Below the pieces are notes generated by a model. It was not told the origin of the DNA, searched no databases, and was given only the letters and a program-made list of their open reading frames with translations. A program made the position numbers and the translations under genes. This document shows, one piece after another, positions 26,263-50,037 of a stretch of DNA of 61,173 nt (its first letter is position 1; every line of letters begins with the position of its first letter). Source of the DNA: a bacterium (GTDB lineage: Bacteria; SZUA-182; DTGQ01); the NCBI GenBank assembly GCA_040755755.1, contig JBFLZW010000072.1, forward strand, positions 76,574 through 137,746. The letters run 5' to 3'.

Positions 26263-26410
26263 AATGACTATACAAGCGGAATCAGGGAAGTATCTTCAAT
26301 TATTGTGAAATAAAAGATATTTTACGCATTTTATCCGGGGCAGGCAGAAAAATGGTATCACTCTCCTCTTCCTCCCCATTACCTCTTTTGCTGTGAAGGG
26401 TCTTGATAGA

Positions 26411-28558
26411 ATGGAAGATACGGTGAATGGATTGTCGTTACGTCCTTATCTTGAGATCCGAAAAGCACCCTTTTCCCTTCAGCTCTCCTTGATCAGCGAG
26501 GACCCGCTGGTCCTGGAGAAAGCCCCTTTCCCATTCCGGGTTATCAGTGATGAAGCTCCTTTCACCCGCCTGGTTGATGCCCGGCTGGTAACCGATGCCG
26601 GGAGTGAAATCAGGAGAGTATTTCTCCTGGTTCAAAAAGATAGCTACCCCCTGACCGCAGATGCACTGCGGTCGCTGAACAACCGGGGCATCGACGATGC
26701 CTGGCAGAGGGCTTTTGCCGGTGCAGGACGTGGAGAGAACAACAGTTCTTCTGTCATTCTCCTGAATCAGATTGATAACCAGGAAGGCAAAAAACGCCTG
26801 GTGCCCTTTCAGCCGCTCTTTTTCTGTAAAAAACAGAAGCTTTTTTTCGACCCGCCATGCCCAGAATGCGGGCTCCCTCTCCGGCAGTGCCAGGACGACG
26901 ACCTTCTGATCAGATCAGGGCTTCAACCCTATTCGACCTCCCTGAGACGGCATCTCTATTGCCCTGCCTGTGCTGCCTCACCCGAGGGGGCCGAATTTTA
27001 CACCTTGGCTTTGGAAAGCATGGATCCACCGGGGCTTCTGGACCGGAGGGATTTGATAAGAAACTTTGGCCGCCTGCTCGAAGGCCGGGGTAATGCCGGG
27101 CCGCTCCCCTGCGGTGATTGTGCCGAAAAGCAGGAGTGCTACGGAAGGTCTAACCGCTGTCTTTCCCGGATAGCGTCCTTTGCCTTTTATCCATTCTTCA
27201 TGGTTATTTTTGAGGCCATGTCGCTTCAAGCTCCTGATTTCCTGGCCCTTGTCTCAGGGGCATCGTTCGAGGAACTTGAAGCGGGTCTTGCCGCCAGCCG
27301 TGAATCGGGGAGGGCGGACTGTCTGAAGGCTATCCGCCGGAAACATCCTGGCGGGGTGTTTACCTTTTTCAATCAGGGAGAAAACTCGTTCGGAGAAAGA
27401 TATTTTGCCGAGGTTTTATACCTCAAGCTTTCCTTTCTCGGAGAATTCCTGCAAGCGGCTTTTTCAGGGCTTGCCCTCGATCATGATCAGCAGCATGACC
27501 CCGGCTTTTCCCTTGACCGGACATGGGTCAGACTGGCCAGACAATCCGGACTGCTCCCGCTTTTCTGGAGCTTTTCGCTCAGGACCCCGGATCTGAAAAT
27601 CCTTCCTTGCCAGGCCTCGCTCAACTCCCGGATTCCTCCGGTTTCAAGCCTCTATTCTCTCGGCCTGGTCTGGTTCCATACCCTCCTGGTCAATCAAAAG
27701 CAGGATATCGGCAGGGTGTATCAGGCACTGGAAGAAAGGATGAGCATGGCAGGCTCCGATAATGAGGCACCAGGCCCCGGTCATGTCCCTGATCCGACCC
27801 AGAGGAGCCAGGCTTTCTCCCCGGAAAACATCTTCTGGCAACCCGATCGCGGAGCGGTTTCAGAAAGCGGCCGCAGATGCTGGGAAAAATGTCTTGATCT
27901 GGGGTGGTCCCTGATCCGGGCAGGATATCATGCCCCATCCCAATGGTCACCGGAGGAATTCCGGAGACAGTTTGAAGCTTTACGGGAAGAAGTGAAAAAG
28001 ATGCTCTTTCAGGGAGATCAGGATCAGGGGAGACCGGATCATGAAGGCCGCCATCGTGAAGCCCTCCCTGAACAACATCCGCCTGAAGGCTGCCTGCCCG
28101 AAAGCACTCCGGAGGAAAGCCGCAGTGATCCGCAGGAAGATAAAGCTATCCATGATATCCTCGTAAGTATCGTGAATGCATGGCGGGCAGAGACTGATGT
28201 GAAGCAGGAGATATCGGCTGAGCTTACGCAAACCATTGTGCTTTCATCCGCCCATCGGGAGACTGTGGAGCCAGCATCTACCATCGAAGAAACTGTGATG
28301 CTTTCATCCGACCAGGTCAGGGAGGATCATATAAGTAAGGCAAGTGAAGACCCTACCCTTGAGACGGTTATCATCTCACCTGTGGCACAGGGGGCACCCG
28401 CTGCGCCTGCAGGTTTTGAGGAACCTGAACCGGCACAGGAGACCTGTAAGCCTGAGTCTGCGCCTGACGATTTTCTGGCTGAAACACTTATCCTGAGCCC
28501 GAGGCCGTCAGCGGCCAGTCAAAAGGTTCGGGACCGCACGAAAAAGAAGGGCCCATGA
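26411..28558 (+). CDS. T6SS-associated zinc-ribbon protein with four FHA-type phosphothreonine motifs
   Basis: 715 residues from the ATG at 26411 (AAGGG 9 nt upstream); a GTG at 26393 is possible. I do not recognise the family. Visible features are paired cysteines typical of zinc ribbons: CPECG at 150, CPAC at 184 and CGDC at 234 followed by CYGRSNRC. A long helical/mixed middle region follows, then an acidic, Pro/Glu-rich tail from ~530. In the tail four spaced motifs occur: QTIVLSS, ETVMLSS, ETVIISP and ETLILSP, with Thr at 608, 628, 652 and 692 and Leu/Ile at +3. That is the FHA recognition pattern pThr-x-x-Ile/Leu. It overlaps the next gene by 4 nt. A scaffold for threonine-phosphorylation control of the T6SS is my inference. 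Confidence 0.6.
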   Translation: MEDTVNGLSLRPYLEIRKAPFSLQLSLISEDPLVLEKAPFPFRVISDEAPFTRLVDARLVTDAGSEIRRVFLLVQKDSYPLTADALRSLNNRGIDDAWQRAFAGAGRGENNSSSVILLNQIDNQEGKKRLVPFQPLFFCKKQKLFFDPPCPECGLPLRQCQDDDLLIRSGLQPYSTSLRRHLYCPACAASPEGAEFYTLALESMDPPGLLDRRDLIRNFGRLLEGRGNAGPLPCGDCAEKQECYGRSNRCLSRIASFAFYPFFMVIFEAMSLQAPDFLALVSGASFEELEAGLAASRESGRADCLKAIRRKHPGGVFTFFNQGENSFGERYFAEVLYLKLSFLGEFLQAAFSGLALDHDQQHDPGFSLDRTWVRLARQSGLLPLFWSFSLRTPDLKILPCQASLNSRIPPVSSLYSLGLVWFHTLLVNQKQDIGRVYQALEERMSMAGSDNEAPGPGHVPDPTQRSQAFSPENIFWQPDRGAVSESGRRCWEKCLDLGWSLIRAGYHAPSQWSPEEFRRQFEALREEVKKMLFQGDQDQGRPDHEGRHREALPEQHPPEGCLPESTPEESRSDPQEDKAIHDILVSIVNAWRAETDVKQEISAELTQTIVLSSAHRETVEPASTIEETVMLSSDQVREDHISKASEDPTLETVIISPVAQGAPAAPAGFEEPEPAQETCKPESAPDDFLAETLILSPRPSAASQKVRDRTKKKGP

Positions 28559-29358
28559 CAAGTACAAAGCAGGTTTCTTTGCCGGAATTGGTCACAGATA
28601 TTCGGAACATCTACCGCTCCGATCCCGGCCGGTCTGAAATGTTGGTCCGGCAGTACCTGGAGGAGCGATTGAGGGAATGCCCGACTGCTGAAAGACTGGC
28701 TCTTGGGGAAGAGCTCATCAGGAGCCTGGAAAGCCCCGGCCGGCAAACCGGAACGGAACCGGCATTGCCCAGCGGGCGACCGTGGCCTCATGAATTACCG
28801 GAGTCCGGTGAGCTTTCGCGGCTGCTTTCGCAACTTTTGGGAATACCGGTGGCCAGGGAGGACCTGTCCTCCAGTGAGCTTCTGGTAAAATTGACCCCCT
28901 CCCTCACCACCATCTTTGATACGCTGAATCAAATTGTCGGCGTTATTGATGACAAGTTTCTTGGCCGAAAAGCTGAACTGGAAACGATCAGGCGGATTAT
29001 CGGCTCCACCATTAATGAAGATGACCTGGAGGATTGCCAGGCTTCCCTGAAGAGTTATCTTGAGCGGATCAAACATGCCTTTTACGCTGCGTATCAGGCC
29101 TTTCAACAGGCTGCCAGGACCAAGATAGAGGAAATCCTGATCGAGCTGAGTCCCGACCGGCTCGAAGCGTTATCAGGCGGAGGCCGGATGGCGCATGGAT
29201 TTAAATTCGGGCCGCTTCGCAAGGCCGAGCTCTTTGAATCCTATCGGGAAAAGTATCAGAACTGTCAGCACTGGTTTGAATCAGGCCGTCTGATGGAAGA
29301 ACTCTTACGGGAATTTGAAAAGGCTTGTCAAAAAATCTATCATGAACAAAGGGGGTAA
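28555..29358 (+). CDS. T6SS FHA-associated C-terminal-domain protein lacking the FHA domain
   Basis: 267 residues, starting in an ATGA overlap with the preceding gene. The helical region from ~95 to the end (KLTPSLTTIFDTLNQIVG; PLRKAELFESYREKYQ; EFEKACQKIYHEQ) resembles the conserved C-terminal domain of T6SS FHA proteins (TagH/Fha1-type, TIGR03354 C-terminal region). The N-terminal 90 residues are short and helical and do not form an FHA beta-sandwich. In other systems FHA protein binds a phosphothreonine target to license assembly. Here the domain stands alone beside a protein rich in FHA-binding motifs. The assignment rests on pattern recognition and should be treated as moderate. Confidence 0.6.
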   Translation: MTSTKQVSLPELVTDIRNIYRSDPGRSEMLVRQYLEERLRECPTAERLALGEELIRSLESPGRQTGTEPALPSGRPWPHELPESGELSRLLSQLLGIPVAREDLSSSELLVKLTPSLTTIFDTLNQIVGVIDDKFLGRKAELETIRRIIGSTINEDDLEDCQASLKSYLERIKHAFYAAYQAFQQAARTKIEEILIELSPDRLEALSGGGRMAHGFKFGPLRKAELFESYREKYQNCQHWFESGRLMEELLREFEKACQKIYHEQRG

Positions 29359-29359
29359 G

Positions 29360-29962
29360 ATGGAAAAACTTTGCAAGACGCTGTTCCTTGGAGCTGTTAC
29401 CCTTGTGCTGTGCACCTGCTGTGCCCGAAAACCGAAGGTCAAGGGCCCGGTTCAACCCAAACCGCAGCTTGAAAAAAAAGAGATTATACCGCTCAGCCCT
29501 CCCGCACCAGCGGAGTGGCTTTACGAAAAGGGAGCCATTCGGCTCCATCTGAAGGCTGATCCACAGTTGAATCTCTATCAGGGGACTGCCTATACTCTGT
29601 CCCTGTGTATCTACCAGCTCTCCAGCCCGAACGCTTTTCAGGAGCTTATGGAAAATGAAGAGGGACTGGGCAGGCTGCTCGAGTGCAGCCGCTTCGATGC
29701 CAGCGTGGCCAGTTACCGGAATATCGTCATTCAGCCAAAGCAGGAGTTGACCGAATCGCTGGACCGGGCCGAAGGGGCCAGATACGTGGCCGTGGTGGCT
29801 GGCTACTATATGCTGCGCAAAGAGCAGGTAACCTGTCTTCTGCCGGTTCCCGTGGTTGAAGAGACCGTGGATGCATCGGGCGCGAAGAGGTTAAAGCCCG
29901 GACCTTTGTCGGTTGATCTTTTTCTTGGCCCTCACGGGATTCAGGAAACTGGAGGAAAGTAG
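29360..29962 (+). CDS. tssJ: T6SS outer-membrane lipoprotein TssJ
   Basis: 200 residues from the ATG at 29360, preceded by AAAGGGGG. An upstream frame to 29315 lies inside the previous gene. The signal peptide ends at a Cys-rich lipobox (CTCCARK). The mature protein has the TssJ transthyretin-like pattern: LHLKADPQLNLYQGTAYTLSLCIYQL, then SFxxL-type FQELMENEEG and a final VDLFLGPHGI strand. TssJ anchors TssM to the outer membrane. The start of tssK (GTG) overlaps its stop by one base. Confidence 0.9.
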   Translation: MEKLCKTLFLGAVTLVLCTCCARKPKVKGPVQPKPQLEKKEIIPLSPPAPAEWLYEKGAIRLHLKADPQLNLYQGTAYTLSLCIYQLSSPNAFQELMENEEGLGRLLECSRFDASVASYRNIVIQPKQELTESLDRAEGARYVAVVAGYYMLRKEQVTCLLPVPVVEETVDASGAKRLKPGPLSVDLFLGPHGIQETGGK

Positions 29963-31356
29963 TGGACATTCAAAGACCTCTTTTCTGGCATCAGGGCCTT
30001 TTTCTGCAACCCCAGCATTTTCAGCTCCAGGAGGCTGCCTTTCAGTCCCTCCTGACCCCCTTTTATCATTTTCTTACCCCATATTTCTGGGGTGCAGGGG
30101 AAATAGAGATCCAAAAAGCCGCACTGGGGAACCGGTCGCTCAACCTGCTGAAGGGGCAGTTTCTCTTTCCTGATGGAACCTACGTGGTTTTGCCGGGAAA
30201 TGCCCTGATCGAGGCCCGCTCCTTCGATCAGGCATGGACGGAAGGGGGGAAACCCTTTTCTGTTTTTGTCGGTCTGAAAAAATGGGATCAGCAGGGAGAG
30301 AATGTGACGGTTCTTCCCGCACTTGACAACCTTGCATCCGTGACCACCCGGTATGTTAGCACGGATGATCCCCAGGAGGTAAAAGACCTGCACCACGGCG
30401 GCCCGCCCGCTCAGGTAAAGAGGCTCTCCCATGTTCTGAAGATATTCTGGGAAATCGAGAAGGACCAGTTGGGCGATTACCTCCTTCTTCCCCTGACCCA
30501 GATCGAGAGGGTGGGGGAGGAAATCAGGCTTTCAGAACGGTTCATTCCGCCTTCTCTGACTGTTTCGAGCTCGGAGCCGCTCTTCAGGATAGTCAGGGAG
30601 ATACGGGATCAGGTGAGCGCCCGCGGACGCCAGCTCGAAGAGTATAAGCGCCAGAAAGGGATCCACACCGCCGAGTTCGGGGCCAGGGACATGGTTTACC
30701 TGCTGGCCCTGCGGACAATCAACCGGTATGTGCCCGCTCTTTTCCAGATTACCCAGACCCGGAATGTGCACCCCTGGATGGTCTATGGCCTGCTGCGGCA
30801 AATGATCGGAGAGCTTTCCTCCTTTTCGGAGAAAATCAGAGTACTGGGTGAGACCGAAGAGGGGATAAGCCTCCTGCCCGCATACGACCACCGCAATCTC
30901 TGGGCCTGTTTCTCGGCGGCCCAGGGGCTGATTACTCGACTGCTCGATGAAATCACTGCCGGGCCTGAATATGTGGTCCGGCTTCACTATGACGGCACCT
31001 ATTATACGGCGGACCTGGCTCCCGGCCTCTTCGATGGAGGAAACCGCTTTTACCTGGTTCTCAAAACCGAAGCCGCCCCCGGACCTGCCCTGCAATCCCT
31101 GAAGACCGTGGCCAAGCTCAACTGCCGGGAGTCCTTGCCCATTCTGATCGCCCGCTCCCTGCCCGGCATCCGGATGGAGCATCTTTCCACTCCGCCCCAG
31201 GAGCTGCCGCGCCGAAGCAACTGCCTCTACTTCCAGATCGACCACCACGCTGAAAACTGGGCCCCGGTCGAAAAGAACCGCAATCTTGCCCTGTACTGGG
31301 ACGATGCTCCCGAAGATCTGGAAGTTGAACTCATGGTAGTAGGGAGGTCATCATAA
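29962..31356 (+). CDS. tssK: T6SS baseplate protein TssK
   Basis: 464 residues with a GTG start preceded by GGAGG. The N-terminus (PLFWHQGLFLQPQHFQ) is the hallmark of TssK. The protein links the baseplate wedges to the TssL/TssM membrane complex as trimers. Length matches the family (about 440-470). It is followed by tssL with a one-base TAATG overlap. Confidence 0.95.
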   Translation: MDIQRPLFWHQGLFLQPQHFQLQEAAFQSLLTPFYHFLTPYFWGAGEIEIQKAALGNRSLNLLKGQFLFPDGTYVVLPGNALIEARSFDQAWTEGGKPFSVFVGLKKWDQQGENVTVLPALDNLASVTTRYVSTDDPQEVKDLHHGGPPAQVKRLSHVLKIFWEIEKDQLGDYLLLPLTQIERVGEEIRLSERFIPPSLTVSSSEPLFRIVREIRDQVSARGRQLEEYKRQKGIHTAEFGARDMVYLLALRTINRYVPALFQITQTRNVHPWMVYGLLRQMIGELSSFSEKIRVLGETEEGISLLPAYDHRNLWACFSAAQGLITRLLDEITAGPEYVVRLHYDGTYYTADLAPGLFDGGNRFYLVLKTEAAPGPALQSLKTVAKLNCRESLPILIARSLPGIRMEHLSTPPQELPRRSNCLYFQIDHHAENWAPVEKNRNLALYWDDAPEDLEVELMVVGRSS

Positions 31357-32033
31357 TGCGCCTGATCGATTGCTTTGTCGAACCTCTTGTCTATACTGCC
31401 TACTTCCTCAAATCAGTAGAAAAAAAACAGCCGCTCTTCGATCATGTCAGGATGGATATTCAGCGGGCTCTGGCCAAGGGAGAGGAGTGCCTGAAGAAAA
31501 ATTCTTTCTCCCGGCAGGATTTCGATCTGGCCCGCTTTGCCGTCTGTGCCTGGATCGATGAGGCGATTCTGAATTCCGCCTGGAAAGAGAAAGCTCGCTG
31601 GCAAAAAGAGCAGCTCCAGCGCATCTATTATAACACCGCCGATGCCGGAGAGGAATTTTTCGAGCGGCTGAATGCCATCGGGCTTCATCAGAGAGATGTC
31701 AGGGAAGTCTATTATCTTTGCCTGGCGCTGGGCTTTACAGGCCGCTACTGTCACGAAGGAGATCAATACCTCCTTGAGCAGCTCAAGACTTCGAATCTCA
31801 GGCTGCTGTGCGGCAGCTCGGTCGGGCTTCCCACCCTGGATAAGATGGAGCTTTTTCCGGCAGCCTATCCGTCTGAATCGGCCAGGGCCGCTCCTTACCA
31901 GAGGAAAGGCCGCCTCTCACTCCTTACCCTGGCCGGTTTTGTGGGGCCGGTCATGCTTTTCGGCCTGTTATGGGTAATTTACCGCTTTGTTCTGACCGGC
32001 CTGGGTAAAAACCTTCTCGATATGGTGCCCTGA
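31356..32033 (+). CDS. tssL: T6SS membrane-complex protein TssL (DotU/IcmH type)
   Basis: 225 residues. The cytoplasmic part carries FAVCAWIDEAIL, a conserved DotU/TssL signature, and LALGFTGRY. A single hydrophobic helix near the C-terminus (TLAGFVGPVMLFGLLWVIY) anchors it. There is no OmpA-like peptidoglycan-binding extension, so another protein must provide cell-wall anchoring if it is needed. It lies between tssK and tssM, two bases before the latter. Confidence 0.95.
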   Translation: MRLIDCFVEPLVYTAYFLKSVEKKQPLFDHVRMDIQRALAKGEECLKKNSFSRQDFDLARFAVCAWIDEAILNSAWKEKARWQKEQLQRIYYNTADAGEEFFERLNAIGLHQRDVREVYYLCLALGFTGRYCHEGDQYLLEQLKTSNLRLLCGSSVGLPTLDKMELFPAAYPSESARAAPYQRKGRLSLLTLAGFVGPVMLFGLLWVIYRFVLTGLGKNLLDMVP

Positions 32034-32035
32034 CT

Positions 32036-35000
32036 ATGAAGCAGCTATTTTTGAAATTAATAAAGGTTTTTCTCTTCATTGCCCTGGCTGTGCTGATTAT
32101 TCTCCTTATCCTGGGAATTGTTTTCCGGCTTGACTGGCCCTGGTGGATGGGGATTGTTCTGGCAGCGGGTCTGGCAGGTTGTGGAGCCGGAGGACTTTTC
32201 ATCCGCAAAATCTGGCTCAGGCGGCGGGAGCAGCGCTTCGTTCAGCAAATTGTCGAGCAGGATACGGCCTCACTCCAGAAACTTTCAGCCAGGGAGCAGG
32301 CGCAATTGCAGGATCTTCAGGAAAAATGGAAAGAAGCTATTGCCGCCCTGAAACGCTCTCACCTGAAAAAACAGGGGAACCCCCTCTATGTACTTCCCTG
32401 GTATATGGTCATCGGTGAAAGCGGTTCGGGGAAAACCACTGCCCTGCAAAGCGCCCGCCTTTCCTCACCCTTTGTCGAAGTCAACCGGACGTCGGGAATT
32501 TCCGGCACCAGAAGCTGCGACTGGTGGTTTTTCGAGCAGGCCATTGTCATCGATACCGCGGGCAGGTACTCCATCCCGGTTGACGAGGGCCGGGATAAGG
32601 AGGAGTGGCAGAAATTCCTCAATCTCCTGGCCAAATACCGCAGGCGCGAACCCCTCAACGGCCTTCTGATAACCATAGCCGCCGATAAACTGCTCGATGC
32701 CCGGCCTGAAATCCTTGAGGATGACGGCACGGCCATTCGCCGGCGCATCGATGAGCTGATCAGGGTGCTTGGGGTAACCTTTCCACTCTATGTTCTGGTG
32801 ACCAAGTGCGACCTGATCCAGGGAATGACTCAGGTGTGCGATCATCTCCCGGAAAAAAGCCTTGATCAGGCCATGGGATTCATCAACCAGGACCTTTCGA
32901 AGGATGTGGCCGCCGTTCAGGACCGGGCTTTTGCTTCAATCGGAGATCGCCTCAGAGAGCACCGGCTTCTCCTTATCCATCAGCTCGATCCAAAAGCCCA
33001 GGACCCTGCACTCCTCATCTTCCCTGAAGAGCTTGAGCGGCTGCGACCGGGCCTTGATATCTTCCTGAAGCGGATCTTTCAGGCCAATCCCTACCAGGAA
33101 ACGCCTGTTTTACGGGGCCTGTTCCTGAGCAGTGGACGGCAGGAGGGAACCCCGTTTTCCCATTTCCTCCAGGGACTGGGCCTCATGGCCGAGCGGGAAG
33201 TGCTTCCCGGAACGAGCAGGGGCCTTTTCCTGCACGACCTTTTTGCCCGCATCCTGCCGAAGGACCGGGGCCTTTTCGCCCCCACCCAGCGGTCAGTCGA
33301 ATGGAGCCGGATGACCAGAAACCTTGGCCTGATCTCATGGGTGGCCCTGATGACAGCCCTGTGCGGCCTGTTGAGCTTTTCCTTTGTCATGAACATGAAA
33401 ACCCTGCGGCAGGTTTCCCGTGAATTTTCACGGCCTGCTGAACAGGGAGCCCCTGTGGATGGAGACCCAACCGGCCTTTCGGCTCTCGATCGCTTCCGCC
33501 AGACGATCCTGGACGTCGAAGCCCTGAACCGCAACTGGTGGGTCCCTACCTTCGGCCTTTCGGAGAGCAGGGGGCTCGAAGCCGGGCTGAAAGATAAATA
33601 CTGCCAGCGGTTTCAGAAGGCGTATCTGACCCCCTTTGACGAGAAGCTGGCTGCCGAAATCGGCGCTCCGCCCGATGGCACTGCTTCAGATCAGGCTGTC
33701 AGGGGAAAGGTGAGCTACCTGGTCAAGCGCATCAATCTTCTCAAGGCCCGCCTCGACGGGGAAGAGCTCGATGCCCTCAAGGCCAGACCTCAGCCCTCAA
33801 CTGCCTGGACGCAGGGATCCGCCGGGAAGGGGGGGGAATCCCCCGAAGCCCGGAATATCATCGATACCCTCTATCTCTATTATCTGGTCTGGAACAGCGA
33901 CTCCGGCCAGATCGAGCAGGAGCTGCGCAGTCAGCAGGAGCGGTTGCAGGCCGTTCTGACCGGTGAGGGATCAAACCTCCGGTGGCTGGTCAACTGGGCC
34001 GATGCCACACTCCCCGCAGTGAACCGTGCGGATTTCTGGGGAGGCGGCAAGGCCCCCGCACCTGATGCAGATGATCATGCTTCGGTTGCCCCGGCCTTTA
34101 CGGTCAAGGGGAAGGAGCAGATCGATTCCTTTCTCAGGGAGATCGAAGCAGCCCTTCCGGACCCCATGATCATGGCTGAGAAAAAGTCAGCCTTTGAAGG
34201 CTGGTATCATCAGGCCTATATGCAGGCCTGGTACGATTTTGGTTTGAGCTTTCCTCACGGGGCAGCCAGCCTCATGACGCGGGAGGAACGGCGGCAGGTG
34301 GCCACCAGGATGGCTGCCGGTACAGGCCCTTATCAGGCGCTCCTGGATACTATGGCCAGGGAGCTTGAACCTCTATCCGCCACCGAACAGGCGACACCCC
34401 CCTGGCTCCTCCTGATTTACCAATATCAGACCATCAGGGAGCAGGCTGTCAGACAAGACCCTGCCCGGCAAAAGGGAATCCTGGACAAGGTGGCTGACCA
34501 GGGAAAGAAACTGATGGGCAGCAGCCTCGAAAAGCTGCAGAAGCTGGAAAAAAAGGTCGGCAGCCTGCGCGAAATGACCCAGGAGGCACGATCGGCGGCT
34601 GCCCGGGGGTATCTGGAATACGCCAATGCCCTGGCTGAAGTTTCTCCGGCCCTGACGTCAGCCAGTCTGTCCTGTCAGGTATCTGCTCAGGTCTATACTG
34701 AAGAGCCTGCGCTGGGCAAGAATCCCTTCTTTTCCGCCCAGCGGGCCCTGACCAAAATCAGGGCCTCTGCTCCAGGGAGCGATCCGGCAAGCGAGATGGT
34801 CTGGAAGCTGATTAGCGGGCCGGTCGATTACCTGTGGGCTTTCGTGGACTCTGAAACCGCCTGTTACCTCCAGAAACAATGGGAAGAGGAAGTGTTGACT
34901 GAAATCGAAGGTATCTGCGGATGGAAAAAGGTCCAGCAGCTTATCCTGGGGCCGGATGGTTTTGTGCAGAAGTTTGTCAAAGGGAAGCTCGAACCCTTTA

Positions 35001-35566
35001 TCATCCGCAGCCAGGGAAGGGGATATTGCGCCAGGAAGGTTCTGGACCGGCAAATACCCTTTGCCGATTCGTTTTTCTCCTTCCTCAACAAAGGGACAGC
35101 GGTAGTGAAAACCGTGGAAGGGAATTATGCGGTCTCGATCAGGGGTCTGCCCACGGATGCCAACCCTGAAGCCAAAATAAAACCCCATGCCACCCGGCTT
35201 GAGCTCTTCTGTGAATCCGGGTTACAAAGCATAGTCAACCTCAACTATCCAATAGCCAAAACCTTCAACTGGTCACCGGAAAGTTGCGGGGAGGTCACCT
35301 TCCAGATCGATGTGGCTGATTTCACGCTTACCAGAAAGTATACGGGGGATCATGCTTTTGCCAGATTTCTCCAGGATTTCCGGGGAGGAGAGCGCACCTT
35401 TTCAGCCAGGGAATTCCCGGAACAAAAGGCCATGCTGGACCGCCTCGGTATCAAATATATCAGGGCCCGCTACCAGTTCAGCGGACAATATCAATCAATT
35501 ATGGCCCTGCAGCAGAATGTTCCGACTCAGGTGCCGCAGACAATCGTCAGGTGCGGGGAGCAGTGA
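32036..35566 (+). CDS. tssM: T6SS membrane-complex protein TssM (IcmF type)
   Basis: 1176 residues, normal for the family. Two N-terminal helices (residues ~8-60) and a third near 435-455 (ISWVALMTALCGLLSFSFVM) are present. The cytoplasmic GTPase-like domain has an intact Walker A GESGSGKT (127-134), a DTAGRYS-type switch and TKCDL. The large periplasmic part ends in the beta domain that meets TssJ. Intact nucleotide motifs are not universal in TssM, so this copy may use nucleotide. The stop overlaps the tagF start (GTGA). Confidence 0.95.
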   Translation: MKQLFLKLIKVFLFIALAVLIILLILGIVFRLDWPWWMGIVLAAGLAGCGAGGLFIRKIWLRRREQRFVQQIVEQDTASLQKLSAREQAQLQDLQEKWKEAIAALKRSHLKKQGNPLYVLPWYMVIGESGSGKTTALQSARLSSPFVEVNRTSGISGTRSCDWWFFEQAIVIDTAGRYSIPVDEGRDKEEWQKFLNLLAKYRRREPLNGLLITIAADKLLDARPEILEDDGTAIRRRIDELIRVLGVTFPLYVLVTKCDLIQGMTQVCDHLPEKSLDQAMGFINQDLSKDVAAVQDRAFASIGDRLREHRLLLIHQLDPKAQDPALLIFPEELERLRPGLDIFLKRIFQANPYQETPVLRGLFLSSGRQEGTPFSHFLQGLGLMAEREVLPGTSRGLFLHDLFARILPKDRGLFAPTQRSVEWSRMTRNLGLISWVALMTALCGLLSFSFVMNMKTLRQVSREFSRPAEQGAPVDGDPTGLSALDRFRQTILDVEALNRNWWVPTFGLSESRGLEAGLKDKYCQRFQKAYLTPFDEKLAAEIGAPPDGTASDQAVRGKVSYLVKRINLLKARLDGEELDALKARPQPSTAWTQGSAGKGGESPEARNIIDTLYLYYLVWNSDSGQIEQELRSQQERLQAVLTGEGSNLRWLVNWADATLPAVNRADFWGGGKAPAPDADDHASVAPAFTVKGKEQIDSFLREIEAALPDPMIMAEKKSAFEGWYHQAYMQAWYDFGLSFPHGAASLMTREERRQVATRMAAGTGPYQALLDTMARELEPLSATEQATPPWLLLIYQYQTIREQAVRQDPARQKGILDKVADQGKKLMGSSLEKLQKLEKKVGSLREMTQEARSAAARGYLEYANALAEVSPALTSASLSCQVSAQVYTEEPALGKNPFFSAQRALTKIRASAPGSDPASEMVWKLISGPVDYLWAFVDSETACYLQKQWEEEVLTEIEGICGWKKVQQLILGPDGFVQKFVKGKLEPFIIRSQGRGYCARKVLDRQIPFADSFFSFLNKGTAVVKTVEGNYAVSIRGLPTDANPEAKIKPHATRLELFCESGLQSIVNLNYPIAKTFNWSPESCGEVTFQIDVADFTLTRKYTGDHAFARFLQDFRGGERTFSAREFPEQKAMLDRLGIKYIRARYQFSGQYQSIMALQQNVPTQVPQTIVRCGEQ

Positions 35567-36318
35567 GCTTGAAAGAGCCTTCATGGCAGTGGTCAGTCCG
35601 GGGCAAGCATCCTGCGGCCAATGATTATATTCATCTTGGTCAGGGTTTCCCCCTGGCTGCTGTTTTTGCTGATTGGGTGAAAAACGGCTATCACCTGGCA
35701 GCTCCTTCGGGGGCTCATCCCTCCCGGCTGTGCTCATGGCGGTTTTGGACCAGGGGCGCGGGATCGGATGTCCTGGTCTTCGGCCTGGTCAGGGACAGCA
35801 GCGACCGGCTTGGCCGTCCGTATCCCCTGCTGGTTATGGGCACAGGGCCGCTGCCGGGCTGGGAAGAGCGGTGGGATCTGGTATCCCTGGCCTGTGAAAA
35901 TGCCTGGTGCCGGATGGAGCACCAGGCAGCCGCCAGCATGGGGAGGCAGTCCGCCCCGCTGGCGGATGTGCGGCGTCTGGAGGCTGAGATCCTGGCAATC
36001 AAGCCGCCAATGGCTGACTGGACCGGGCTTCTGAAGGAACGGGAAAGCTGGCCGGGGGCGTTCGGGGCTCCTGCCAGCATGTCGGGGATAGTCGAGGATG
36101 TTATGGAGAAGGAGGAGGTTTTTATCGACCTCAATCAAGGAAGACCGGAGCATGGTCATCTCCCCCTGGTGGTCAGTTCCTGGCACCGTTTCCTGAAAGC
36201 TCACCTGGGGGACATGCCAAAGGTGGTTTTTATGGGTGGAACAGCAGATAAAACCTTTCTGGCTGTTTTCCTGCGGCCACTTAAACCTGCTGATTTTGTG
36301 CGGCTTTGGTCCTTGTGA
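35563..36318 (+). CDS. tagF: T6SS accessory protein TagF
   Basis: 251 residues from the GTG at 35563, which overlaps the tssM stop and follows GGGGAG; the frame is open to a GTG at 35551. The TagF/DUF2094 features are GKHPAANDYI near the start and GRPYPLLV in the fold core. In Pseudomonas TagF represses T6SS assembly post-translationally, acting with Fha and PpkA (established). No PppA phosphatase domain is fused here, unlike some TagF proteins. Confidence 0.88.
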   Translation: MSLKEPSWQWSVRGKHPAANDYIHLGQGFPLAAVFADWVKNGYHLAAPSGAHPSRLCSWRFWTRGAGSDVLVFGLVRDSSDRLGRPYPLLVMGTGPLPGWEERWDLVSLACENAWCRMEHQAAASMGRQSAPLADVRRLEAEILAIKPPMADWTGLLKERESWPGAFGAPASMSGIVEDVMEKEEVFIDLNQGRPEHGHLPLVVSSWHRFLKAHLGDMPKVVFMGGTADKTFLAVFLRPLKPADFVRLWSL

Positions 36319-36340
36319 GGAAAATTGGAGGCCATAGGCT

Positions 36341-37144
36341 ATGGATGTAAAAGAATTAATCAGATTGGGAAGGCTTTCCGAAGCCCGATCGCAGCTCATC
36401 GAGAAAGTCAAAGCATCACCCGGTGATGTGAGTATAAGAACCCTCCTCTTTCAGGTGCTTGCCCTGTGCGGTGAGTGGGACAAGGCGGATCGTCACCTGG
36501 AGGCGATTGCTGTTCAGGATTCATCCGTCGAGACAGGCGTGCAGGTCTACCGGAACCTGGTCCATGCGGAAAAAGAACGGATCGAGGTCAGCAAGCGCAG
36601 CCGCCTGCCGTCGTTTCTGCCCAAAGCTCCGCCATATCTTGAGCTGTATTTTGCAGCCTGGGATAAGCTTGCTGCCGGCAATATTGAAGAGGCCCGCAGG
36701 CTGTACGAACAACTGGAAACGATCTCCCCTCTTTTGTCAGGCACACGGGATGGCAGGGTTTTCAGCGGCTTCAGGGATATGGACACCTTCCTGTCGCTTT
36801 TCCTCGAAGTGATTGTCCATGAGCAGTATGGATGGATCCCCCTGGAATCGCTGCGGGAGCTTTCCATAGCCCCGCCCAAGACCCTGTTCGATCTTCTGTG
36901 GGCAACCGCCCGGATAACCACCTGGGAAGGGCTCACCCTGAACTGCTGTCTGCCGGTTCTCTATCCCGGCTCCTTCCTCCATGAGGATGAGCGGGTCAAG
37001 CTTGGCCGGATGACTGACTGGATCCCGCTGGGAGGACCATTTTACCGAGGCAGAGGGCAGCATACTTTTCAGGTCGGAGAAGAGGATGTGGCCATCCTGG
37101 AAATGCGGGAGGTCATATTTGAATTGCCGGCAGCGAGGAAATAG
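36341..37144 (+). CDS. tagJ: T6SS accessory protein TagJ (ImpE)
   Basis: 267 residues. The N-terminal TPR-like helices (MDVKELIRLGRLSEARSQL) and the C-terminal region with WIPLGGPFYRGRGQHTF are typical of ImpE/TagJ. TagJ binds the N-terminal region of TssB in some systems and helps ClpV (TssH) recycle the sheath. It sits 22 nt after tagF and 3 nt before tssA. Confidence 0.92.
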   Translation: MDVKELIRLGRLSEARSQLIEKVKASPGDVSIRTLLFQVLALCGEWDKADRHLEAIAVQDSSVETGVQVYRNLVHAEKERIEVSKRSRLPSFLPKAPPYLELYFAAWDKLAAGNIEEARRLYEQLETISPLLSGTRDGRVFSGFRDMDTFLSLFLEVIVHEQYGWIPLESLRELSIAPPKTLFDLLWATARITTWEGLTLNCCLPVLYPGSFLHEDERVKLGRMTDWIPLGGPFYRGRGQHTFQVGEEDVAILEMREVIFELPAARK

Positions 37145-37147
37145 CCG

Positions 37148-38497
37148 ATGAAAAGAGCCATTGATCAAAACGCACTGCTGGCCCCGATTCCGGGTGATAA
37201 TCCGTGCGGGAGCGACCTTCGCTACAGTCCCGTCTACGATGCAATCAAGGAAGCCAGGAGGTCTGAGGACCCGTTTGCCCAGGGAGACTGGAAGCACGAG
37301 GTAAAAACCTCTGACTGGGATAAGGTGATTACCCTTGCCACTCGTGCGCTGAGCCGTGAAACCAAGGACCTGCAGATTGCCGCCTGGCTCACCGAAGCCC
37401 TGATCATGACCGAAGGTTTTGACGGTCTTTCAGCGGGGATGAAGATACTGATCGGTCTTTTAAACAACTACTGGGAGAACGTTTATCCCCTGATAGAAGA
37501 TGGAGACCTCGAATTCCGGGCTGCACCCCTGGAGTTCATGAACGAAAAGCTTCCATCGTGTATTCAGCAGGTCCCGTTGACAGACAAGGGCGCAACTCCG
37601 GGGTATTCTTACCTGAGGTGGAAGGAATCCCGCGAAGTGGGCTCTGAGTCTGACATCCGGAACCAATATGGCGATATTGACGAGGATAAAAAGAAAAAGC
37701 GTGATGAGCTGCTGGCTGATGGGAAATTGTCTGCGGAAGAATTCGACAAAGCCGTAACTCTCTCTTCAACGGCCTTCTATGCATCGTTGGCACAAATTAT
37801 CACTGCCTGCCTTGAGGACTTTCAGAAACTCGACGAGACCGTGGACCGGAATTTCGGCTCCGACGCACCCAGGCTGGCCGAGCTTCGGAGTGCGATTGAG
37901 GAGTGCAGCAGGCTGATCATGAAGATATATAAAGAAAGAAAGGGACCCGAACCGGTCGTGGAGTCTGCCCCGGCGGGGGAACAGAGCATGGCTGCCGCTG
38001 CCGAAGGCCACGGAGAAGCGCTCGATATCCGGGACCCTGGACGGGCGACGACACCAGCGGCAGGAGTTTTATCAGCCCCGGCCGGGAGATTGGCAGAAGA
38101 TGCGGGCGCTCCTGAACAGGATCTCTGGGCACAGGCCCTCCAGATGATGCAGACCGGCGGCCTGAAGCAGGCCCTGGACCATCTTCTGGCCGCCTCGTTA
38201 TGCGCTCCGTCGATCAGAGAACGAAACCGATGCCGCCTCCTGGTAGCCAGACTCTGCCTGAAGGCAAACCGGACGGACCTTGCCCGGCCCATCATAGAGG
38301 AGTTGCACGGCCTGATCGAAGAGCTGCATCTTGAGCGCTGGGAATCTCCCGTCTGGATCGCGGAAGTGCTTGACACGCTGTATCAGTGCCTGACTCAAGG
38401 CGAGCACCCCTCGGACGATGACCTTGACCGGGCCAGGGGGCTTTTCCGGCGGCTCTGTACTATGGATGTAACCAGGGCATTTTCGTATAGAAAATAA
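37148..38497 (+). CDS. tssA: T6SS cap/priming protein TssA (ImpA type)
   Basis: 449 residues. The N-terminal ImpA domain (LLAPIPGDNPCGSDLRY, then EAPW-like DLQIAAWLTEALI) is clear. A Glu/Ala-rich linker lies around 270-330, and a C-terminal helical VasJ-like domain follows (LLVARLCLKANRTDLARPII). TssA primes baseplate and tail-tube/sheath polymerisation. The four-helix tail suggests the shorter TssA class rather than the one forming the distal cap star. Confidence 0.92.
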   Translation: MKRAIDQNALLAPIPGDNPCGSDLRYSPVYDAIKEARRSEDPFAQGDWKHEVKTSDWDKVITLATRALSRETKDLQIAAWLTEALIMTEGFDGLSAGMKILIGLLNNYWENVYPLIEDGDLEFRAAPLEFMNEKLPSCIQQVPLTDKGATPGYSYLRWKESREVGSESDIRNQYGDIDEDKKKKRDELLADGKLSAEEFDKAVTLSSTAFYASLAQIITACLEDFQKLDETVDRNFGSDAPRLAELRSAIEECSRLIMKIYKERKGPEPVVESAPAGEQSMAAAAEGHGEALDIRDPGRATTPAAGVLSAPAGRLAEDAGAPEQDLWAQALQMMQTGGLKQALDHLLAASLCAPSIRERNRCRLLVARLCLKANRTDLARPIIEELHGLIEELHLERWESPVWIAEVLDTLYQCLTQGEHPSDDDLDRARGLFRRLCTMDVTRAFSYRK

Positions 38498-38521
38498 ATT
38501 TCTCAGAAGAAAGGAGAAAGT

Positions 38522-39052
38522 ATGCCATCGCAGGAAAGTTTACAGCACAAGCTCGATAGAGTTCGGTCTCCCCGCGTTCAGATCACCTATGATGTTGAGA
38601 TCGGTGATTCCATCCAGATGAAGGAGATCCCTTTTGTCGTGGGAATATTGGCTGATTTATCCGGCAAACCCGATGAGCCGCTTCCGAAGCTGAAGGACAG
38701 AAAATTCATCGAAATCGACCGGGACAACTTTAACAATGTGCTTGAGGCGACCAGGCCGAGACTGGCTTTTAAAGTTGATAACAAGCTGACCGGAGAAGAT
38801 ACCAAGCTGGGAGTGGAGCTGAGGTTCAAGTCTCTCGATGATTTTCATCCGGAACACGTGGTACAGCAGGTCGAGCCGCTGCGCAAGCTGGTGGAAGCAA
38901 GGAAAAAACTCTCTGACCTGCTCAGCAAGCTGGATGGCAACGACAGGCTCGATGAGCTTCTCCAGGAGGTGATTTCCAGCACCGATCTGCTCCAAAAAGC
39001 GGGAGAGGAAACCGGAGTGAAAAAGTCAGACGAAGGGAAAACTGTGGAGTAA
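38522..39052 (+). CDS. tssB: T6SS contractile sheath small subunit TssB (VipA)
   Basis: 176 residues, preceded by AAAGGAG. Family features are RVQITYDVEIGD, VVGILADLSG and FIEIDRDNFN, followed by the ClpV/TssC-interacting helices. It forms the outer sheath with TssC, 12 nt downstream. Confidence 0.96.
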   Translation: MPSQESLQHKLDRVRSPRVQITYDVEIGDSIQMKEIPFVVGILADLSGKPDEPLPKLKDRKFIEIDRDNFNNVLEATRPRLAFKVDNKLTGEDTKLGVELRFKSLDDFHPEHVVQQVEPLRKLVEARKKLSDLLSKLDGNDRLDELLQEVISSTDLLQKAGEETGVKKSDEGKTVE

Positions 39053-39064
39053 AGGAGGGATTCC

Positions 39065-40561
39065 ATGGCTGAAATGGAACAACAGCAACAGGTACAGGCT
39101 GCTCAGGCTGAGGCAGCCGGGGAAGAAAAAGGGATTTTGGATAAAATCATCGAAGAGGGCCGCATGGCCCGCGATGAGACACAGCGGGAATGGGCCAAAG
39201 ATCTCATCGGGGAATTCGTCAATCAGATCATGCAGGGGGCCATGGTCGTTTCCAGGGATACCGAGCGCATGATCAACGCCAGAATCAGTCAGATTGACCG
39301 GCTTCTTTCCCTTCAGCTCAATGAAGTCATGCATCACCCTGATTTCCAGAAGCTTGAGGCCTCCTGGCGGGGATTGCACTATCTGGTCAATCAATCCGAA
39401 ACCGGTGAAACCCTGAAGCTCAGAGTAATGAACGTATCGAAGAAAGACCTCCTCAAGGACATGGAAAAGGCGAGTGAATTTGACCAGTCCACGCTTTTTA
39501 AGAAGATTTATGAAGAGGAGTTCGGTACTTTCGGCGGAGCCTCCTATGGCGCTCTCATCGGTGATTATGAATTCGGTAACAACCCCCAGGACCTTTCACT
39601 TCTCGAAAAGATATCCCAGGTAGCCGCAGCCGCGCATGCTCCCTTTATCTCGGCTGCATCTCCGGCTCTTTTTGGCTGGCAGAGCTTCACCGAGCTTGGC
39701 GGGCCCCGGGATCTGGCCAAAATCTTCCAGACCGCCGAGTATGTCAAGTGGAAATCCTTCCGTGATTCGGAGGATGCCCGCTATGTGGCCCTTGTCCTGC
39801 CCCATGTTTTGATGAGACTTCCCTATGGTCAGGCGAATATCCCCGTGGAGTCCTTCGCTTATGAGGAGGATGTGGATGGCACGGATCACGACAAATATCT
39901 CTGGGGTAACGCGGCCTATGCTCTTGGTGCACGCCTGACCGATGCCTTTGCCAAGTACCACTGGACCGCCGCTATCAGGGGCGTTGAAGGCGGCGGGCTG
40001 GTCCAGGGGCTTCCCGTTCACACCTTCAGGACCGATGAGGGAGATGTGGCCCTGAAGTGTCCTACCGAGATAGCCATAACGGACAGGCGGGAGAAGGAAT
40101 TTGCCGATCTTGGCCTTATTCCCCTGGTCCACTGCAAAGGGACGGATTATGCAGCTTTCTTCAGTACTCAGACAGTCAACAAGGCCAAGACGTATGATAC
40201 CGATGCCGCCAACGCCAATGCCAGACTTTCTTCCCAATTGCAGTATATCCTTGCGGTTTCCCGGTTTGCTCATTATCTGAAATCGATCATGAGGGATAAG
40301 ATCGGCAGTTTCATGACCCGGAAAAATGTCGAGGACTATCTGAACCGCTGGATCAGCAACTATGTACTGCTGGATGACGAGGCAGGCCAGGAAATGAAGG
40401 CCAAATTCCCGCTGCGGGAAGCACGGGTCGATGTGGTCGAGGTTCCGGGAAAACCCGGTGCGTATCGGGCTGTGGCCTTTCTGCGGCCTCATTACCAGCT
40501 CGATGAATTGAGTATATCCTTGAGGTTAGTAGCAAACCTGCCCCCGCCAGCCAAAGGGTAA
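39065..40561 (+). CDS. tssC: T6SS contractile sheath large subunit TssC (VipB)
   Basis: 498 residues with AGGAGG before the ATG. Motifs include LEASWRGLHYLV, GDYEFG, LRLPYG-like LMRLPYGQANIPVESFAYEE and WRSVGE-region counterparts. The C-terminal strand (AFLRPHYQLDELSISLRLV) completes the sheath handshake. It is the best conserved T6SS gene and the best phylogenetic marker in this window. Confidence 0.97.
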   Translation: MAEMEQQQQVQAAQAEAAGEEKGILDKIIEEGRMARDETQREWAKDLIGEFVNQIMQGAMVVSRDTERMINARISQIDRLLSLQLNEVMHHPDFQKLEASWRGLHYLVNQSETGETLKLRVMNVSKKDLLKDMEKASEFDQSTLFKKIYEEEFGTFGGASYGALIGDYEFGNNPQDLSLLEKISQVAAAAHAPFISAASPALFGWQSFTELGGPRDLAKIFQTAEYVKWKSFRDSEDARYVALVLPHVLMRLPYGQANIPVESFAYEEDVDGTDHDKYLWGNAAYALGARLTDAFAKYHWTAAIRGVEGGGLVQGLPVHTFRTDEGDVALKCPTEIAITDRREKEFADLGLIPLVHCKGTDYAAFFSTQTVNKAKTYDTDAANANARLSSQLQYILAVSRFAHYLKSIMRDKIGSFMTRKNVEDYLNRWISNYVLLDDEAGQEMKAKFPLREARVDVVEVPGKPGAYRAVAFLRPHYQLDELSISLRLVANLPPPAKG

Positions 40562-40616
40562 CGGCCGGTATGAGGGTAATCAACCAACAATCTCATAGAT
40601 CAGGAGGGAACAGATC

Positions 40617-41105
40617 ATGGCTTTTGATGCATTTTTAAAAATTGACGGCATTGAGGGTGAAAGTACGGACGACAAGCACAAGGGCTGGATAGAGATATTG
40701 TCCTATAACTGGGGCGTAAGCCAGACAGCATCCGCTACTGCCAGCTCCTCCGGAGGGGCCGCATCGGAGAGGGCAAATTTCCAGGATTTTTCCGTTGTCA
40801 AGATGCTGGATAAGGCTACTCCGAAGCTGGCTCTGGCCTGCTCTTCAGGCCAGCATATCAAGGAGATCACGCTCGAATTATGCCGTGCCGGTGGCGATAA
40901 GGTGCCTTACATGGAGTATAAGATGAACGAGGTTCTCATCAGCTCGTATAGTGTCGGCGGTGCAGGCGGTGGCGAGCCGACGGAATCACTGAGCTTCAAT
41001 TATGCAAAGATCCAGTGGACCTATACCCAGCAAAAACGCGCTGATGGTACCCCCGGAGGCAAGATACCGGCCGGATGGGACCTTGCGGCAAATAAGAAGG
41101 TATAA
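40617..41105 (+). CDS. hcp: T6SS inner-tube protein Hcp (TssD)
   Basis: 162 residues with CAGGAGGG before the ATG. The N-terminus AFDAFLKIDGIEGESTDDKH and the phrase GWIEILSYNWGVSQ are typical Hcp1-type. The C-terminal strand FNYAKIQWTYTQQ completes the ring interface. Hcp hexamers form the tube inside the sheath and can carry small effectors in the lumen. A Gly/Ala/Ser-rich loop (~42-54) is longer than in classic Hcp1. Confidence 0.96.
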   Translation: MAFDAFLKIDGIEGESTDDKHKGWIEILSYNWGVSQTASATASSSGGAASERANFQDFSVVKMLDKATPKLALACSSGQHIKEITLELCRAGGDKVPYMEYKMNEVLISSYSVGGAGGGEPTESLSFNYAKIQWTYTQQKRADGTPGGKIPAGWDLAANKKV

Positions 41106-41116
41106 GGCAGAAAAGA

Positions 41117-41134
41117 CAGTGGTCAGTGGTCAGT
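41117..41134. repeat. GGTCAGT-type dispersed repeat downstream of hcp
   Basis: CAGTGGTCAGTGGTCAGT contains tandem GTGGTCA units. A longer version follows tssE at 41671-41701, so the repeats bracket tssE within the operon. Confidence 0.8.
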
Positions 41135-41191
41135 AAAAACACTGAACTCTGCAAACTGATGATTCTTTCTCTGTGAGGATAGAATAACCGG

Positions 41192-41668
41192 ATGCAGGAG
41201 AACCGGCAAAATATCCAGGCATCTATCCTGGACAGGCTCATAGATTACGAGCCGGAGGTTACGCAGGAGCCTGTCCAGCGGCAGGTGCTGAGTATCGAAC
41301 AGGGCAAGGCGGCTGTTATACGGGACCTTGAGAATCTTCTCAATACCAAGAGCATCGTCATTTCCATCCCGCCGGTATACCGGCAGGTCAGCCGCTCTGT
41401 TCTTGTCTACGGAGTGAGGGATTTTACCTCGCAAAACCCCAAGAGTATTGCCGTAAAAAAGCAGTTGCGCCAGAATCTGGAGGAAACCATCGCCAGGTTC
41501 GAGCCAAGGCTGAGGAATGTGACCGTCCAGGTTGAGGGGTCCACCGGAAACGAGCGAAGTGTCAGGTTCAGGATCACCGGTCTTCTGATCCTCGATCCCC
41601 TGACGGCACCCGTAACCTTTGATACCCTGTTCGATATCAATCGGGGTGAGTACACTATCCAGGGGTGA
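41192..41668 (+). CDS. tssE: T6SS baseplate protein TssE (gp25-like)
   Basis: 158 residues of the GPW/gp25 family. RQVLSIEQGKAAVIRDLENLLNT matches the N-terminal part with the EIxR-type region (here SIEQGKAAVIRDLE), and the core VYGVRDFTSQNPKS and FEPRLRNVTV strands are present. TssE starts sheath polymerisation and works like phage T4 gp25. It is flanked on both sides by dispersed short repeats, which separate it from hcp and tssF more widely than other operon spacings. Confidence 0.9.
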   Translation: MQENRQNIQASILDRLIDYEPEVTQEPVQRQVLSIEQGKAAVIRDLENLLNTKSIVISIPPVYRQVSRSVLVYGVRDFTSQNPKSIAVKKQLRQNLEETIARFEPRLRNVTVQVEGSTGNERSVRFRITGLLILDPLTAPVTFDTLFDINRGEYTIQG

Positions 41669-41670
41669 TA

Positions 41671-41783
41671 GTGGTCAGTGATCAGTGGTCAGTGGTCAGT
41701 GAAAAGAAATAATGAACCAGAAGTCAGAATAAAAGCAGTCTTTCTCCTGACTCCTGACTTCTGACTCCTGACTTCTGACTTCT
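41671..41783. repeat. Two dispersed short-repeat arrays between tssE and tssF
   Basis: Directly after the tssE stop lies a run of GTGGTCA/GTGATCA units (41671-41701). After 42 bases of unique sequence comes an array of CTCCTGA and CTTCTGA heptamers (41744-41783). Both are heptamer-based. Repeats of this type occur scattered in many environmental bacterial genomes. Confidence 0.85.
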
Positions 41784-41803
41784 AAGAATGGTGATATACC
41801 CAT

Positions 41804-43609: not shown

Positions 43610-44604
43610 AAGACCGCCTTTTTGACGAATATTACCGGTTCTCCTTCTTTATGGCCGTGCACCTTCTGGAGCGCCTCTACCCGGAGAAAAAGCCGGTAGG
43701 CAGCAGCCTGAGCCCTGTCGATGAAGCGGTGCGGTTTTCGGTCAAGCCCGGGCTTTCGTTTCCGGCAAGTGATATATCGGATCTGGGCTGGGACGATGAA
43801 GGCAGGCAGGTCCGGATGGGAGTCTCGTTCATGGGATTGATTGGCCCCGCCGGGGTCCTTCCTCACTGGTATAACGAGCTGGCTTTGCAGAGGAAGTGGG
43901 AAAAGGATTTCAGCCTGACCGCTTTTCTGGATATTTTTCACCACCGCCTTGTGTCATTGTTCTATCTGGCCTGGAAGAAAAGCAGGCTGGCTGTCCAGTA
44001 TCAGCCCGGAGCCGGGGACAGTATCTCACGGTATTTCTTAAGTCTCATGGGCCTGGGAACACCAGGGCTTTCGGACCGCATCGGATTGCCGGAAGAATCG
44101 CTCATCTGCTATAGCGGGCTTTTTGCAAGGCCGGTCCCGTCGGCTGTGGCCATTGAGCTTGCAGCAGGGTATTTTGCCGGGACCAGGGCACAGGTGGAGC
44201 AGTTCATCGAGCGGGTCATTGCCCTCGATCCGGAAGATCAGACCTGCCTGGGGGTGGCTAACCACCAATTGGGAGAGAATGCTCTGTGCGGAAACTTCGT
44301 CCGGGAAAACCAGACGAAATTCCGCGTCAATCTCGGACCGATGGATTATGCGCATTTTATCCGCTTCCTGCCGGGCGGTGACCTGCTGGGGCCGGTCTTT
44401 TCGCTCCTGCGGTACATGGCAGGGCTTGAATATGAATTCGAGATCCGGTTATTGCTGAAGCGGGAAAGTGTGCCGCTGTGCATAATAGGCAGGAAAGATA
44501 ACCTGTCCGCCCGTCTGGGGTGGACCACCTGGCTCACGACGCCGGGAACTGTTTTTCAGGATGATCCCTGTCTGACTTTTCAGGAAGGGGATATTGGAAG
44601 GTGA
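43573..44604 (+). CDS. tssG: T6SS baseplate protein TssG
   Basis: 343 residues if begun at the GTG at 43573, inside the end of tssF. Conserved phrases are SFFMAVHLLERLYP, PASDISDL, FMGLIGPAGVLPHWYNELAL and FLDIFHHRLVSLFYLAW. It completes the TssF2-TssG wedge. The start could be slightly later, but no better ribosome site is apparent. Confidence 0.94.
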   Translation: MAAEERQQDTPLEDRLFDEYYRFSFFMAVHLLERLYPEKKPVGSSLSPVDEAVRFSVKPGLSFPASDISDLGWDDEGRQVRMGVSFMGLIGPAGVLPHWYNELALQRKWEKDFSLTAFLDIFHHRLVSLFYLAWKKSRLAVQYQPGAGDSISRYFLSLMGLGTPGLSDRIGLPEESLICYSGLFARPVPSAVAIELAAGYFAGTRAQVEQFIERVIALDPEDQTCLGVANHQLGENALCGNFVRENQTKFRVNLGPMDYAHFIRFLPGGDLLGPVFSLLRYMAGLEYEFEIRLLLKRESVPLCIIGRKDNLSARLGWTTWLTTPGTVFQDDPCLTFQEGDIGR

Positions 44605-45180: not shown

Positions 45181-45299
45181 GAAATATTAATGTGTTGTCT
45201 TACCAATATGAGCGATGCGAAAACAAAAATAAATAGGAATATAGGTAAAATTGATTGATAACATTGTGGCCTCAAGGACAATCATGGCCGGAGGGAAAA

Positions 45300-48682: not shown

Positions 48683-48690
48683 GTGGATGA

Positions 48691-49823: not shown

Positions 49824-50037
49824 GGTGTCAATGATTGAATCTTAAGATAAGGTTTTCAAATATTGGCCATTTATGATAAAATTTAGTATAAGCAAATAGA
49901 TGATGTCAAGCTAATAGCTCTCAATCGCCGTGATTTCTTTGGAGAGAAAGTGTCATAATGGCTTTGGCAGGGGCATTTTAAATACCGGATACACCAAAGA
50001 GGTAAGTTTCGATCCAGCAAGAAAGGGAGAAATCCTT

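Follow-up and report, generated by a model that had tools for sequence, protein, structure and literature searches.

The window, a 61,173-nucleotide stretch of a bacterial contig, contains a T6SS operon whose first gene, ORF1, encodes a protein with a repeated threonine motif in its tail. The locus raises the question of whether this repeat could serve as a phosphothreonine (pThr) array that recruits FHA proteins to the T6SS. FHA domains require pThr, and the ELM ligand pattern is pTxx[ILV] (PMC8786283). In the known T6SS pathways, Fha or TssL is phosphorylated by PpkA, and the pThr is then read by Fha (PMC3953482, PMC5995506). PpkA and Fha of Acidovorax form condensates (PMC12607579).

ORF1 heads the T6SS operon of the window

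The T6SS locus of the window meets the core-gene criterion (TssA–M) with TssJ, TssK, TssL, TssM, TssA, TssB, TssC, Hcp, TssE, TssF, TssG, a ClpV-type AAA protein and VgrG (Table 1). ORF1 is the first gene of the operon. The following gene, ORF2, scores 21.6 bits against the Pfam family T6SS_FHA_C, just under the curated cut-off of 23.7 bits, and 15 of 17 ORF2 homologues match the family, which upholds the similarity to the C-terminal domain of T6SS FHA proteins that a sequence-only reading of this DNA had proposed. No FHA domain was detected in ORF2 using Pfam.

Table 1. Features of ORF1 and the T6SS locus (positions in the window)
Feature	Position	Strand	Remarks
ORF1	26393..28558	+	721 aa from GTG 26393; 715 aa from ATG 26411
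Cys cluster, probable zinc ribbons	26825..27139	+	C145, C156, C159, C166, C190, C193, C240, C243, C249
Predicted helix AIHDILVSIVNAWR ahead of the array	28145..28186	+	Window compared with L071–L074
FHA-ligand-like motif 1, TIVLS (T614/T608)	28232..28246	+	Context TQTIVLSS
FHA-ligand-like motif 2, TVMLS (T634/T628)	28292..28306	+	Context EETVMLSS
FHA-ligand-like motif 3, TVIIS (T658/T652)	28364..28378	+	Context LETVIISP
FHA-ligand-like motif 4, TLILS (T698/T692)	28484..28498	+	Context AETLILSP; best conserved of the array
ORF2	28555..29358	+	Stand-alone T6SS_FHA_C domain; corresponds to the C-terminal half of Fha/TagH and lacks FHA
T6SS operon	29315..44604	+	TssJ, TssK, TssL, TssM, TagF, ImpE-like, TssA, TssB, TssC, Hcp, TssE, TssF, TssG (Pfam)
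TssH (ClpV-type AAA protein)	45255..47942	+	Pfam
VgrG (TssI)	49930..52218	+	Pfam

The ORF1 protein consists of a core and a C-terminal FHA-ligand-like array. It has no family match in Pfam or NCBIfam, PDB profile searches yielded no meaningful match, and relatives are absent from plasmid records (tblastn) and viral contigs. The core contains nine Cys residues, all nearly invariant in the alignment columns of 23 homologues. They comprise the three CxxC pairs noted in the earlier reading (C156/C159, C190/C193 and C240/C243) and the additional residues C145, C166 and C249. A zinc-ribbon scaffold is a plausible description of ORF1 on the basis of this pattern, with metal binding being inferred.

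The operon position of ORF1 is fixed. ORF1 homologues head T6SS operons, the gene order from ORF1 to TssC is the same in relatives, and wherever the locus of a relative is intact, ORF1 strictly precedes the genes for the FHA_C protein and TssJ. In G239, a genome of another phylum, the gene slot ahead of TssJ holds a classical fused protein of FHA and FHA_C. The T6SS of genome G317 is similar to that of the window (TssK, 61%), and no ORF1, ORF2 or tandem-FHA protein (tFHA) was found in this genome, a pattern that is consistent with joint loss or absence.

Two further features of these loci were observed. In G317, TagF and TssA-like segments share one 800-aa reading frame (L041, 8611–11013). The effector end of the T6SS locus in the window (48068–59083) encodes a Stv-domain protein, VgrG, DUF6484, PAAR-like, AHH nuclease, Imm11, Imm49, DUF2169 and HEAT-repeat proteins and resembles an ordinary set of antibacterial effectors and immunity proteins.

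The ORF1 tail contains four FHA-ligand-like motifs

The 120-residue tail of ORF1 contains four E/Q-T-[IVL]-[VMI]-[LI]-S motifs. All four had been claimed at 28230–28500 in the sequence-only reading and are present there, with Thr codons that start at 28232, 28292, 28364 and 28484. That reading numbered residues from the ATG at 26411 (Thr608, 628, 652 and 692); from the GTG at 26393, which is used here, the residues are 614, 634, 658 and 698. In composition-preserving shuffles of the 120 residues, four motifs never occurred in 300,000 trials, and three motifs occurred in 2 of 300,000. These tail shuffles, combined with the count of 98 motifs versus 1.8 expected across 25 homologue tails (see below), rule out a chance origin of the motifs.

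The pTxx[ILV] residue pattern, which consists of Thr and a +3 Ile, Leu or Val, is satisfied by all four window motifs and by 94 of the 108 motifs in the family; the other 14 have Met at +3. The residues of the array fit an FHA ligand. Phosphorylation and FHA binding are inferred, without phosphoproteomic or binding data.

The motif array is conserved in two phyla

In the window's phylum (nine genomes), ORF1 is found only in the window genome and in G003 (MAG CSMAG_2299), the two genomes with the sheath gene TssC. In G003, which belongs to the same family as the window genome, ORF1 is split over two contig fragments that are 39 and 51% identical to it, and the operon order is as in the window. 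Three array positions are readable as METIILSP, TETMIQKP and TETIILKP, of which the first and last are canonical. A contig scan with a three-row alignment that included fragments matched only two contigs of the G003 MAG. In a different phylum, that of G317, a profile search detected ORF1 homologues in 25 of 395 genomes.

The readable homologue tails carry one to nine motif copies each, with the family consensus [ED][ED][DE]LxETVI[LI]SP. Across 25 tails, the pattern T[VI][VIMLTF][ILMV] occurs 98 times, compared with 1.8 ± 1.3 times in shuffles. The Thr of the pattern is replaced by Ser once and never by Val or Pro. At the +3 position, Leu is most frequent (59 of 108 family motifs), followed by Ile (32), Met (14) and Val (3). 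In the 23-row alignment, T698 and the candidate Cys ligands fall in columns that are nearly invariant, and in tails that otherwise diverge, conservation is highest at the Thr and the hydrophobic +3 residue. Homologues that fail to conserve the Thr or +3 residue would have refuted the sequence-only reading; instead, Thr-specific conservation persists over large divergence, and the +3 position remains hydrophobic. The proposed Leu/Ile at +3 applies to the four window motifs and is too narrow for the relatives, which also use Met (14/108) and Val (3/108).

In a scan of ∼45 loci, at least two motifs were found only in ORF1 homologues. Several relatives are reduced to parts of ORF1. In four genomes of one genus (L071–L074), the core is gone, and what remains is a 128–164-aa protein made up of two or three motifs and a predicted short helix of the NEAIHKILVRILEKWR type. 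The helix, whose status is inferred from the sequence, precedes the array in ORF1 and is retained in these core-less proteins. In G515 and G716 (L064 and L065), the C-terminal half of the core is lost, and the Cys region and the array are kept. Because relatives that have lost all or half of the core retain the array, the array is probably the part of ORF1 under the strongest selection, as judged from these sequence comparisons.

Two irregular relatives were also observed. G239 encodes a relative of the ORF1 core without the Thr array (L023, 479–2488), located away from the T6SS of that genome. In G675 (L066), the core and the motif tail seemingly lie in different frames, possibly due to a frameshift or an assembly error.

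A kinase/PP2C/tandem-FHA module is encoded elsewhere in the genome

The window lacks a kinase or FHA domain, as noted earlier, and all own-genome matches are located on other contigs. The kinase and FHA genes that the sequence-only reading sought elsewhere in the genome are present on contig C31, where a Ser/Thr kinase (12779–14011 of L012), a PP2C and tFHA are encoded side by side; a genome devoid of both kinase and FHA protein, the second condition that would have refuted that reading, is thus not the case here. The module is not linked to the T6SS in the window genome (contig C31 versus C72). tFHA consists of FHA domains only. FHA1 keeps the pThr-pocket signature (GR, SRxHA and NGTxVNG), and FHA2 lacks it. 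In relatives, the recurring module set consists of tFHA, a divergent PP2C, a trypsin-like protein, an STPK-PEGA protein, a TPR/redoxin protein and a CsgG-like protein.

The module is co-distributed with ORF1. Among 26 ORF1-positive genomes tested, all 26 encode a Ser/Thr kinase, and 25 encode FHA domains. The remaining genome, G476, has ORF1 without an FHA match; it is a 710-contig MAG, and its sister G505 has an FHA match. With an orthologue threshold of E < 1e-40, tFHA was identified in 23 of 25 ORF1-positive and 3 of 370 ORF1-negative genomes (Fisher p = 7e-32). This p value treats related genomes as independent and is optimistic because the sampled genomes are related. In the window's phylum, tFHA is found only in the window genome and G003, despite the lack of linkage to the T6SS in the former, and the seven genomes of this phylum without a T6SS have no module FHA. 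The pathway criterion, namely a kinase, a PP2C and an FHA protein in the genome and co-distribution with the T6SS, is met.

Linkage is frequent in the relatives. tFHA and ORF1 are 27–41 kb apart in seven of the eight genomes that have both on one contig, at opposite ends of the T6SS cluster. In G505 and, judging by position, also in G476, the gene immediately upstream of ORF1 encodes a CHASE2-kinase. G620 has the module kinase next to its short ORF1, G668 has PP2C next to ORF1, and in G627 an FHA domain is encoded at a distance of ∼2 kb from ORF1. Inheritance as a single gene cluster, rather than direct binding, may account for the co-occurrence and linkage.

Beside the tandem-FHA gene, seven relatives encode a 509–577-aa sheath-like protein (L156, 9612–11183; L164, 8664–10232; also L160, L162, L163, L170 and L171). 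The two that were tested contain VipA (TssB) and VipB (TssC) domains in one chain (Pfam) and are separate from the TssB and TssC of the operon. The window genome also has a second signalling set on contig C37 (L013, 11846–14752), which encodes a vWA-like protein, a PP2C-like protein, a short FHA protein and a kinase whose C-terminal part includes an FHA-like stretch; the other genes of this contig resemble a restriction-modification locus.

Possible kinase ancestry of the ORF1 core

The cores of G239, G627, G668 and G688 exhibit kinase-like landmarks in order: VVVK, HLNLRPENVWV for HRDLKPENVLV, and DLYSLGxL for DVYSLGVL. The ORF1 core has no match to the Pfam kinase family, and kinase profile comparisons (hhalign and hmmsearch) gave only weak, non-significant alignments, mainly of the DLYSLG region. 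An AlphaFold model of ORF1, built from a three-row alignment, has a pLDDT of 33 and is uninformative on the fold. The membership criterion for a kinase is unmet despite the suggestive positions, and kinase homology of the core is not claimed because the hhalign and hmmsearch results are non-significant. A wider conjecture, which we regard as possible but doubtful, is that ORF1 is a catalytically inactive relative of a Ser/Thr kinase, with zinc ribbons between its lobes, that has turned into a phospho-scaffold. Its multi-Thr tail would be written by the active kinase and would gather several FHA proteins, and a valency threshold or condensate would set the place and time of T6SS assembly.

Proposed role of the array and alternative readings

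The reading that we consider likely is that ORF1 is a T6SS scaffold with a multivalent tail that is written by a kinase, read by an FHA protein and erased by a PP2C. It would thus represent the T6SS threonine-phosphorylation pathway in a split form. The C31 Ser/Thr kinase, an inferred writer, would phosphorylate the Thr residues of the four ETVILSP-like motifs of ORF1. The canonical FHA1 domain of tFHA would bind each pThr via the +3 Leu or Ile, and the PP2C beside the kinase and tFHA would reverse the phosphorylation. ORF2 and the ORF1 core, whose partners are likewise inferred, would tie the assembly to the base of the T6SS, where the gathering of several FHA proteins would promote assembly. 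That the outcome is activation rather than inhibition is also an inference. The lack of phosphoproteomic and binding data counts against the proposal, as do the unlinked module in the window genome, the missing FHA match in G476, the three genomes with tFHA and no ORF1 match, and the Met residues at +3 (14/108), which fall outside the ELM pattern.

The conservation of the tail also has to be weighed against a role without phosphorylation. The motifs could be docking strands, in which TVIL islands add a β-strand or a hydrophobic anchor to ClpV, TssK or the sheath and Thr is used for its strand propensity. The +1 to +3 hydrophobic residues are indeed kept as strictly as Thr, and ORF1 is located in the core operon. 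Strand propensity would, however, permit an exchange of Thr for Ser or Val, which is not observed (98 versus 1 and 0), and both the acidic residues ahead of Thr and the co-occurrence of the array with the kinase/PP2C/FHA module speak against docking strands, which we consider unlikely.

Phosphorylation and FHA binding could also serve a purpose other than T6SS assembly. The module contains genes beyond the standard T6SS parts (trypsin-like protease, TPR/redoxin, CsgG-like) and is not linked to the T6SS in the window genome; both would suit a tail that functions in general kinase signalling, for example as a sink for the STPK module or as its output. The strict place of ORF1 ahead of the FHA_C protein and TssJ wherever relatives have intact loci, and the missing module FHA in the seven window-phylum genomes without a T6SS, render this very improbable. 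The sign of the effect is a separate issue, since the array might keep the T6SS off if the phosphorylated tail sequesters FHA proteins, or if TagF acts via the tail, so that assembly is blocked. TagF is encoded in the same operon, and in Agrobacterium and Pseudomonas it binds Fha and thereby represses the T6SS (PMC5995506). In the studied T6SSs of Agrobacterium, Pseudomonas and Acidovorax, by contrast, kinase phosphorylation activates (PMC3953482, PMC12607579, PMC5995506), and an off-switch appears improbable. The activating scaffold remains the preferred reading.

T6SS control by threonine phosphorylation has been described in a few Proteobacteria, in each case at a single reported site of Fha or TssL. 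If the proposal is true, a dedicated repeated array on its own scaffold, conserved in two phyla and tied to a kinase/phosphatase/FHA set, shows how this switch can be made multivalent. The array can be tested at the peptide level and would give a function to a protein family that neither Pfam nor NCBIfam covers, and the natural split of Fha can help to tell apart what its two domains do.

Comparison with known systems

No description of such an array was found in the accessible portions of the open-access literature on T6SS phospho-regulation, FHA domains and pseudokinases. The ELM FHA ligands share Thr and a hydrophobic +3 residue with the array; unlike these ligands (PMC8786283), the tails have one to nine repeats each, acidic residues ahead of Thr and, in part, Met at +3. 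In the EssB pseudokinase/EssC FHA pair of T7SSb, a secretion-system FHA protein also meets a kinase-like protein. There the pseudokinase domain is bound in a manner thought to be phosphorylation-independent (PMC11217815), whereas the element proposed here is a linear pThr array and a kinase-like core of ORF1 is only suggested.

Further parallels are the PpkA–PppA–Fha pathway and canonical Fha/TagH. As in the pathway (Pseudomonas Fha1 Thr362, Agrobacterium TssL Thr14 and Acidovorax PpkA–Fha), an STPK, a PP2C and an FHA protein are encoded or co-distributed with the T6SS, the FHA domain is inferred to read pThr, and an FHA_C protein precedes TssJ. The known substrate, however, is Fha or TssL with one described site, and here it would be a separate candidate scaffold with up to nine sites. 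Canonical Fha/TagH combines FHA and PF20232 in one chain. At the window locus, the PF20232-like ORF2 occupies the same slot and tFHA supplies FHA, but the two are split into separate genes, with tFHA in another cluster and its second FHA domain degenerate. The criterion of a fused FHA and FHA_C protein is unmet (ORF2 lacks FHA, and tFHA has FHA only). Of the earlier proposal of a new control element of T6SS, the kinase–pThr–FHA logic was already known; new are the candidate substrate, a scaffold of its own that bears a multivalent array, and the division of Fha into two proteins. Because the fused protein is missing from the operon, the system is classed as a variant of the T6SS threonine-phosphorylation pathway and not as a canonical Fha system.
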